Assembly (NCBI RefSeq): GCF_900105925.1
Contig: NZ_LT629791.1
Coordinates: forward strand, 3,755,278-3,819,277
Source of the DNA: Jiangella alkaliphila
Lineage (GTDB): Bacteria; Actinomycetota; Actinomycetes; Jiangellales; Jiangellaceae
Reading direction: 5' to 3'
Length of the DNA: 64,000 nucleotides
Part shown: positions 29,096 to 31,610 of the stretch, piece by piece
How positions within the stretch are numbered: position 1 is the stretch's first letter
Layout: the number at the start of each line of letters is the position of its first letter
Notes under the pieces: model-generated
The model's input: only the letters and a program-made list of their open reading frames with translations
Databases searched by the model: none
What the model was told of the DNA's origin: nothing
Translations under genes and position numbers: made by a program

Positions 29096-29371
29096 TCAGC
29101 GGACGGCGCGGGTTGCGGCCTCGAGGAGGGCCTGCGCGACCGCCTCGGCCTCGTCGGGTTTCAGCGTCACCGTGGCCGGTGGTGACCACCGGGTGGTGGC
29201 GGTGAGCTCGACGTGGAGGGGCTCACCGTCGGACTGGACGATGTTGACCCCGATGAGCCAGGTGCTGCGCCAGGCGACCAGGGAGGTGACGTACTGGCGG
29301 TGCTCGTCGTGGTCGCCGGCCTCGTTGCACCACTTGAGGACGCACTCGTCGTTGGAGGTGGTGGCGGTCAT
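29096..29371 (-). CDS. DUF6907-like small protein
   Basis: 91 residues. The N-terminal half has a WCNEAGDHDEHRQYV segment, the middle a beta-rich VNIVQSDGEPLHVELTAT, and the end a helix VTLKPDEAEAVAQALLEAAT. This WCxxH plus terminal L(T/K)PxEAxxLAxAL pattern matches short actinobacterial proteins annotated DUF6907, of unknown role. Its ATG overlaps the stop of the preceding gene (ATGA). No membrane segment or signal peptide. Confidence 0.75.
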   Translation of the reverse strand: MTATTSNDECVLKWCNEAGDHDEHRQYVTSLVAWRSTWLIGVNIVQSDGEPLHVELTATTRWSPPATVTLKPDEAEAVAQALLEAATRAVR

Positions 29372-29922
29372 CGGCCGACCTCGCTCTCGGTCGCGAAGAA
29401 CGTGCGGACGTGGTCGAGCTCGGCCTTGACGCTGCTGAGCTGCTCCACCGCCTCCCGGTAGCCGGACAGGTGCTGCTCGGCGGTGTCGACCGCGGCGGCG
29501 GCCCGGTCGAGCAGCTCGTTGCCGGTCTCGGCGACCAGGGCGCGCCCTGCCCGCCAGTCGAGCTTGCCGCGGAAGCCGATCACGAACCCGCCCAGCCGCT
29601 TGGACAGGGCGTCGAGCCGTTCGATGATCTGCTCGTCGGACATGCCGGGCAGGTACCGCTCGCGGGCGTCGGCGAGCAGAGCCGGGGTCCAGCCGGCCCG
29701 CTGCGCGGTGTCGGCGATGTCGGCCAGCTGCCGGGCCAGGATGCGGGCCTCGGGCGGGGTGAGGGAGACGTCGATGCGCTGACCGGCGTCGGTGGGTTCG
29801 AGGTGGATGTCGATGGCGGGTCCCTCGGTGTCGTGCCAGGCGATCATCTCGCCGACGTCGTCGCTGAGGAAGGCGGACCGGACGATGACGTCACGACGGT
29901 CCGCGGCTGGCGTGGTGGCCAC
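29368..29922 (-). CDS. Hypothetical protein with DUF6907-like N-terminus and helical C-terminus
   Basis: 184 residues. Residues 10-75 repeat the theme of the neighbouring small proteins (IAWHDTEGPAIDIHLEPTDA, then LTPPEARILARQLADIAD). The rest is helical, ending in a probable coiled coil (VDTAEQHLSGYREAVEQLSSVKAELDHVR). I chose GTG 29922 because GGAGGA stands four bases before it; an ATG four codons earlier would leave that site inside the gene. It is coupled to the following gene by ATGA. Function unknown; perhaps an oligomerising relative of the small proteins around it. Confidence 0.72.
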   Translation of the reverse strand: MATTPAADRRDVIVRSAFLSDDVGEMIAWHDTEGPAIDIHLEPTDAGQRIDVSLTPPEARILARQLADIADTAQRAGWTPALLADARERYLPGMSDEQIIERLDALSKRLGGFVIGFRGKLDWRAGRALVAETGNELLDRAAAAVDTAEQHLSGYREAVEQLSSVKAELDHVRTFFATESEVGR

Positions 29923-30211: not shown

Positions 30212-30499
30212 TCACCCGGGCAACGCACCGGGCCGCTCCAGCTCGTCGGCCAGGGCGGTGAGGGCGGCGGCCAGCTCGCGCACCTCGGCCGCGCTGAACC
30301 GCGGCGGCCGCCGGGCGTCGGACCTGATCAGCGACACGACGACCCCGGCGCCGTCGCCGCCGTCGCCGCCGTCCTGACGGGCGCCCTGCAGCCAGGCCGC
30401 CCCGCCGCCCGGGAGGTCGTGGAGACCGCCCAGACACACGCCGGCAGGGTCGTGCTCGACGCACCACGGGTGGCCGTCAGCGGGGTGTGGGGTGCTGAT
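30212..30499 (-). CDS. DUF6907-like small protein, probably with a non-standard ATC start
   Basis: 95 residues if started at the ATC at 30497-30499. The conserved head HPWCVEHDPAGVCLGG and tail FSAAEVRELAAALTALADELE match the family, with a Gly/Asp-rich linker between. The frame is closed upstream by TGA and has no ATG, GTG, TTG or CTG between that stop and a GTG at 30437-30439, which would cut off the WCVEH motif. GAGGAGG (30508-30514) stands eight bases before the ATC. So initiation at ATC, or an error in that base, is the simplest reading. Third member of the local family. Confidence 0.6.
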   Translation of the reverse strand: MSTPHPADGHPWCVEHDPAGVCLGGLHDLPGGGAAWLQGARQDGGDGGDGAGVVVSLIRSDARRPPRFSAAEVRELAAALTALADELERPGALPG

Positions 30500-30749
30500 G
30501 GGACGAGCCTCCTCGTGCGTGCCGTGCCCCCTTGGGGACGAGATTCACATCGGTGTCGCCGCGACGTCAACCGGAGAGCCGATCCGTTTCGGCGGCGGCG
30601 CCGCGGTGATCGATAGGGTTCGACCGGTGGAGGGCATGCACACCGGCGACGACTGGGGGCCGGAGGCTCCCACGAGTCGTCGGTCCAGGGCGGAAGTGGC
30701 CCGGAGAGAGTGAGAATGTCGTGCAAGGCCTGACACGTAAGGGTTGCTA

Positions 30750-31610
30750 GTGCTTCGTCTCGCTGCTGTCGTCGCCGCCCTCGAGCGGCTGTACCCGCCG
30801 GAGCTGGCCGAGTCGTGGGACGCCGTGGGGCTGGTGTGCGGCGACCCCGGCGCGGAGGTGCGGCGGGTCCTGTTCGTCGTCGACCCTGTCGCGGCCGTCG
30901 TGGACGAGGCGCTGACCTGGGAGGCCGACCTCGTCGTCACGCATCACCCGCTGTTCCTGCGCCCGGTGCACGGGGTGCCGGCGACGACGCCGAAGGGGCG
31001 GCTGGTGCACCGGCTGATCACCGGCGGCGTCGCGCTGCACACCGCGCACACCAACGCCGACCGCGCCGCGCCGGGCGTGAACGACGCGCTCGCGGCGGCG
31101 CTCGGCCTGCACGACACCCGCCCGCTGGTCCCCGCCGACGACGGCGACCCTGCGCGCGGCCTGGGCCGCGTCGGGCGGCTGCCGGGGCCCGAGCCGCTGG
31201 CCGCGTTCGTCCGGCGGGTCGGCGCGGCGCTCCCGGCGACGGCGGCCGGCGTGCGCGCCATGGGCGACCCTGACACCGTCGTCACGACGGTGGCGGTGTG
31301 CGGCGGCGCGGGCGACTCCCTGCTCGGCACCGTCCGGGCCGCGGGCGTCGACGCGTACGTGACGGCGGACCTGCGCCACCACCCGTCGTCCGAGGCGGGG
31401 GAGTCCGGCGGACCGGCGCTGGTCGACGTCGCGCACTGGGCCAGCGAGTGGCCGTGGCTGGCCGATGCCGCGGCGTTGCTGACGGCCGAGTTGTCCGGCG
31501 CAGGCGCTACGGTGGAGACTCGCGTCTCGACCACTCCGACCGATCCGTGGACACTGCATCGAACCGCCCGGGAATCCGGAGCCGACCTAGGAGCTCACGC
31601 TGAACGCTGA
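30750..31610 (+). CDS. Nif3-like dinuclear metal-centre protein
   Basis: 286 residues of the Nif3/YbgI/YqfO family, a widely conserved hexameric ring protein with two metals per subunit and unsettled function. Metal-binding motifs are [13 protein letters not shown] (HH), HTAHTNAD (H-x-x-x-N/D) and, near the end, the H-x-x-x-E type segment [16 protein letters not shown] 30750 follows AAGGG at six bases. It leads the conserved actinobacterial trio Nif3 / zinc-ribbon coiled coil / RNase H-phosphatase, with each junction overlapping. Confidence 0.88.

Follow-up and report, generated by a model that had tools for sequence, protein, structure and literature searches.

A small Jiangella gene with a conserved ATC codon as its probable translation start

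A small gene located on the minus strand of the window (the whole stretch of 64,000 nucleotides of Jiangella alkaliphila DNA analyzed in this work) is, with a probability that we estimate at roughly four in five, genuinely initiated at an AUC codon. This reading is drawn from the comparison of related genomes, in which the codon and a ribosome-binding site ahead of it are both retained, and the gene is a well-supported new example of a conserved non-standard start outside infC. The gene and the elements relevant for its initiation are the following:

30212–30499, minus strand: coding sequence of a small, weakly DUF6907-like protein; open frame of 95 codons and a stop, with ATC as the first codon
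30497–30499, minus strand: predicted start codon ATC; ATC in 12/12 Jiangella genomes, aligned with GTG in 2/2 sister genomes
30508–30514, minus strand: ribosome-binding site GAGGAGG, identified in the sequence, 8 nt ahead of ATC
30545–30547, minus strand: in-frame TGA closing the frame upstream, 48 nt before ATC and at equal distance in 8/12 genomes
30437–30439, minus strand: GTG, first ordinary start codon of the frame, 20 codons past ATC; GTG in 3/12 Jiangella genomes and rejected as start

The original prediction had proposed that the gene starts at ATC, with a GAGGAGG site eight bases ahead of the codon and a TGA closing the frame further up. Both elements were located in the sequence (30514–30508 and 30547–30545, respectively), and the proposed start itself was supported by the presence of ATC, together with a ribosome-binding site, in all 12 Jiangella genomes. 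The spacer between GAGGAGG and ATC (30499–30497) reads CTCGTCCC on the minus strand, and the 3′ end of the 16S rRNA of the window genome (G000, a single contig of 7.72 Mb) is CACCTCCTTTCT, which pairs with the GAGGAGG site. From the TGA down to the GTG at 30439, the frame contains no ATG, GTG, or TTG, which are the codons referred to here as ordinary starts. The coding signal obtained with a codon model begins at the ATC, with a score of 22.7 for the forward frame vs 7.4 or less for the other five frames, and a value of −3.2 for the upstream sequence.

Orthologues of the gene were identified in 12/12 Jiangella genomes (one genome per species) through a genus search, in 14/22 genomes through a family search, and in 14 of 393 genomes of the class, the query of the last search being 13 of the 14 proteins in aligned form. 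The 14 genomes were the same in the family and class searches, and all of them belong either to Jiangella or to its sister lineage, represented by Haloactinopolyspora alba and a metagenome-assembled genome. No distant members outside these two groups were found among the 393 class genomes, and a scan of named genomes resulted in 9 loci from the same groups. Rows dropped from the counts were L023, which is a second piece of the gene of G004, and the weak matches L022, L024, and L025 (E values from 0.0003 to 0.007). The truncated copy of Jiangella aurantiaca (L017) was included when start codons were counted, and it forms no part of the protein alignment or of the codon counts. In this copy (L017:36–224, minus strand) the ATC is kept and the frame is apparently lost after ca. 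35 codons, near the contig end; the copy may be genuinely broken, or the assembly may simply stop there.

The aligned start codon was ATC in the 12 Jiangella genomes and GTG in both sister-lineage orthologues; the alignment of relatives, recommended in the original prediction as a check for ATG at the same place, revealed no ATG. A sequencing error masking a true ATG would need to be present in each of 12 Jiangella genomes, all from different species, and it is effectively excluded by these data. A purine-rich ribosome-binding site was found 7–10 nt before ATC in the 12 genomes, as AGGAGG or GGAGG in 10 of them and as GAGGAAGG in the other two. In eight genomes, the TGA located 48 nt upstream is followed by no ATG, GTG, or TTG until at least 20 codons past ATC, and in five of these eight the first ordinary start lies at least 35 codons down. 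The frame is open further up in the remaining four, among them G001, which has an ATG 27 nt before ATC. No ordinary start codon is common to all 12 Jiangella genomes, and from 16 codons before to 11 codons after this position, ATC is the sole one-base relative of ATG that is fixed in place in all of them. The gene shares two traits with genes of the infC/sigR type, namely a genus-wide non-standard start conserved in orthologues together with its ribosome-binding site, and the absence of a usable ATG, GTG, or TTG across relatives.

Initiation at the later GTG (30439), the first ordinary start in the frame of the window, would result in a protein of 75 residues. The use of this codon by homologues had been pointed out beforehand as an observation contrary to an ATC start; the codon turned out to be GTG in 3/12 Jiangella genomes only. 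Furthermore, the motif WCVEH had been described as lying upstream of this GTG, and the corresponding invariant residues W12, C13, E15, and H16 do precede it in the 13 aligned proteins. On these grounds the later GTG was rejected, and we consider a start at this codon extremely improbable.

It has to be considered that translation might begin further upstream, with the ribosome reaching the gene by frameshift from another frame or by reading through the TGA. Seven of the 12 genomes do contain a GTG 49 nt and a TTG 71 nt upstream, placed in the two other frames and open past ATC, and four more have an ordinary start elsewhere in the 90 nt upstream, likewise out of frame. On the other hand, none of these codons is common to all genomes: their place or frame differs in G001, G002, G003, and G011, and G006 is devoid of any other-frame start within 90 nt. 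In addition, upstream indels shift the frames between genomes, and a separate ribosome-binding site, correctly spaced from ATC, is present in 12/12 cases. Taken together, these observations make an upstream origin very unlikely.

The behavior of other codons in the 11 Jiangella genes of full length served as a comparison for the invariance of the ATC, whose third base is C in 12/12 Jiangella genomes. Within the genes, the third base was uniform in 0/14 fourfold-degenerate columns encoding a single amino acid, and 7/42 columns with C as third base in the window genome were C throughout. Four of the five twofold-degenerate columns for invariant residues also retained their codon, and for this reason the fact that C never became T at the start is unremarkable. 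Since third-base invariance is not unique to the start codon, what matters is that the C-to-G change that would give ATG, common at fourfold columns, was never observed at the start codon. The most direct reading of this codon comparison would be that ATC is maintained by selection. The presence of ATC with its ribosome-binding site in 12/12 genomes is not due to chance.

The distribution of start codons was also examined on a tree, rooted at midpoint, of the protein encoded by the gene adjacent to the small gene:

30744–31610, plus strand: divergent gene, which we take to be NIF3-like; beside the small gene in 13/13 related loci tested

In this tree, a supported branch (98/95) separates the 12 genomes with ATC from the rest. 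The ATC and GTG labels cluster equally well in 32 of 500 label shuffles, because only two genomes carry GTG. G003 and G006 branch first among the ATC genomes, and both have kept ATC and GGAGG even though their upstream region differs and their second codons are TGC and GCC.

The intact proteins of the genus have 84–134 residues, with a length of about 90. Seventeen residues are invariant in the 13 aligned proteins, from which the J. aurantiaca copy was left out; they include W12, C13, E15, H16, D17, P18, G20, C22, L23, and G24, which form the segment WCxEHDPxGxCLG. The C-x2-H-x5-C spacing in this segment could possibly bind a metal. The constraint on the protein is moderate, with a median pairwise dN/dS of 0.56 (55 pairs, highest value 1.08). 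This value, the variable length of the gene, and the J. aurantiaca copy that seems to lose its frame near the contig end would be in line with a gene in decay, whose start was lost in the ancestor of the genus and whose frame is no longer translated. However, the full frame is kept in 11/12 genomes, 17 residues have remained invariant, the ribosome-binding site is present in 12/12, and the codon signal starts at ATC, all of which argues against decay and makes it an improbable explanation.

The description of the gene product as DUF6907-like, with a family motif, was upheld in part. Profile similarity was observed, albeit weak, whereas an established match was not, since none of the 13 members scanned reached the cut-off of 26 bits for Pfam DUF6907 (PF21848). 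The window protein scored 12.0 bits, L018 19.5 bits, and the best member (L012) 20.7 bits, and 7/13 members matched the profile at E ≤ 1. The best stretches are placed mostly in the C-terminal half (strand-helix), and the WCxEHDP segment falls outside the best stretch in most matches. The DUF6907 assignment is thus considered tentative. An AlphaFold2 model of the protein (mean pLDDT 71.6, pTM 0.60) predicted four strands and a C-terminal helix, and a fold comparison of this model with the PDB gave nothing usable (best match E 1.5). Literature searches on DUF6907 and on Jiangella in combination with start codons found no publications.

A link to IF3 is suggested by the start of infC. This gene begins with ATC AGC in 21/21 family genomes with a match (22 searched; infC loci L143–L163), and the ATC AGC lies behind AGGAGG in the 5/5 Jiangella genomes searched for IF3_N. 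The small gene starts with the same two codons in 10/12 Jiangella genomes. The pattern composed of GGAGG, 4–9 bases, and ATCAGCRC has eight occurrences in the whole window genome, and a control pattern has one. Two of the eight sites are gene starts, those of infC and of the small gene, and the other six were judged by eye, according to codon-position composition and reading frames, to be inside other genes.

The mechanism that we propose for the small gene is as follows. The strong ribosome-binding site would position the 30S subunit at AUC, and fMet-tRNA would pair with this codon through the first two bases, the third base being mismatched. AUC would be a weak start, normally discriminated against by IF3, and translation from it would be of low yield. 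The genus may have kept this weak start because it limits the small protein to low amounts, and synthesis of the protein would probably rise when IF3 activity drops, as for infC and for sigR of Streptomyces. From the analogy with these two genes, control of the small gene by IF3 appears slightly more probable than not.

A constitutively weak AUC start, with expression kept low by selection and with the level of IF3 being uninformative, would fit all the evidence on ATC conservation equally well. The AUC start is common to both interpretations, and the likelihood of this one overlaps with that assigned above to the start. Against it, the ATC (in 10/12 genomes as ATC AGC) matches the start of the IF3-controlled infC, and repression of such starts by IF3 has been published (PMC5472188); we regard the constitutive start as a serious possibility, although at less than even odds. 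With regard to IF3 control, Feeney and colleagues report in the same work an ATC start for infC of Streptomyces and a repression of non-canonical starts by IF3. They demonstrated this repression for the GTC-started sigR, and the GTC is present in 32/34 Streptomyces (PMC5472188). The mechanism is therefore established in related bacteria, and we infer its extension to the small gene. In M. smegmatis, initiation at ATC is described as low and above background, given a ribosome-binding site (PMC4633059). More IF3 lowered the products from weak third-base pairs according to the accessible text of PMC10158994, in which a natural AUC/CAU pair is not quoted. One ATC is listed among upstream start sites of E. 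coli in the available section of PMC13245402, and the section available of PMC11497404 contains nothing on AUC.

The small gene resembles infC of Streptomyces and Jiangella in the ATC start, the strong ribosome-binding site, and the genus-wide conservation, to which the AGC second codon is added in 10/12 genomes. In E. coli, the start codon of infC is ATT. Unlike infC, which is essential and self-regulating, the small gene encodes an unrelated protein and would be a target, not a regulator. The resemblance to sigR of Streptomyces lies in being an actinobacterial gene other than infC with a genus-wide conserved non-standard start behind a strong ribosome-binding site; sigR differs in that its start is GTC instead of ATC, it encodes a sigma factor, and its control by IF3 was shown by experiment. 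Apart from infC, genes with conserved non-standard starts have seldom been described, and sigR was the one found for actinobacteria in the publications as far as they were accessible. Within the same limits, infC was the only conserved gene with an ATC start that the literature search found, which does not prove that others are absent. Gene finders restricted to ATG, GTG, and TTG miss or truncate genes of this kind. With ATC present genus-wide in the small gene vs GTG in the sister lineage, and infC likewise starting with ATC, the number of IF3-controlled genes becomes directly testable.

Other non-standard starts were surveyed in 61 stretches amounting to 1.259 Mb, including the window, which represent 16% of the genome. 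The survey criteria were a spaced ribosome-binding site, a coding signal downstream only, and no ordinary start nearby. Stricter settings missed both infC and the small gene, and the counts given here come from a relaxed version. Hits per sites were 93/492 for ATG, 70/934 for GTG, 3/136 for TTG, 5/538 (0.9%) for ATC, and 1/20 for ATT; other codons reached up to ca. 2%, and the rare codons AAA (1/23) and TTT (1/30) also gave single hits. No enrichment of ATC over background was observed in this relaxed survey. Since the single ATT hit is matched by those of AAA and TTT, the count alone proves nothing, and it is the comparison of relatives that carries the case. The five ATC hits were infC, the small gene, L086, L094, and L109, the last three being judged by eye to be probably false. 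At position 5327 of L094, GAGGAGG is placed directly before ATC CGC, and a GTG located ca. 15 codons later seems by eye the likelier start.

The ATT hit corresponds to an O-methyltransferase gene (Methyltransf_3, 112 bits):

L081:14728–15378 (G000:C1:2714728–2715378), minus strand: O-methyltransferase, with ATT TCC ACG behind AGGAGG

The first ordinary start of this gene lies 50 codons past ATT. Its aligned start in the family is ATT or ATC in 20/22 genomes (12 ATT and 8 ATC) and ATG in G003 and G006. Among 19 further loci of the class, ATC was found by eye in seven, the rest having ordinary starts, CTG, or unclear starts. These data suggest that the small gene belongs to a small set of ATC/ATT-started genes. 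As a tentative proposal, the family might keep infC, the small gene, the O-methyltransferase gene, and probably others as an AUC/AUU translational regulon read by IF3, whose membership would be gained or lost by single-base changes in the start codon.

The region surrounding the small gene contains the following additional features:

29368–29922, minus strand: orfB, next gene downstream, uncharacterized; conserved neighbor with an ordinary GTG start and GGAGG
29096–29371, minus strand: orfC, third gene, uncharacterized; overlaps the end of orfB
30541–30570, minus strand: conserved block TTGACG-18-GAATCT, candidate promoter recognized by eye

Both orfB and orfC follow the small gene in 10/11 related Jiangella loci, the contig ending in the eleventh (L017), and the flanks of 1.5 and 3 kb inspected at the two sister-lineage loci contained neither. 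The GTG start of orfB with its GGAGG was detected in 7/12 genomes, the remainder being missed by the motif used in the script. Matches of orfB and orfC to DUF6907 were not significant (E values of 0.65 and 0.44).

Regarding RNA structure, the predicted folding of the start region did not exceed that of shuffled sequences in 4/4 sequences (z from +0.7 to +1.3). A hairpin in the start region of the window, whose loop contains the ribosome-binding site, was rejected as a candidate: it was no better than shuffles, and inspection by eye indicated that the sequence disallows it in some genomes.

A scan for strict consensus promoters and terminators found none in this region. By eye, TTGACG-18-GANNCT was recognized upstream of the gene in 10/12 Jiangella genomes. 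The TTGACG-18-GAATCT block, located at the place expected for a promoter, is probably one, and transcription from this position would leave an untranslated leader of ca. 35 nt. At 30541–30580 of the window (minus strand), ahead of the gene, lies a conserved block, CTCCGGTTGACG...GTGTGA or ATGTGA, that is shared by 10/12 Jiangella genomes. The palindrome ACACCGGTGT is found within this 30541–30580 block in three species, where it constitutes a possible operator.
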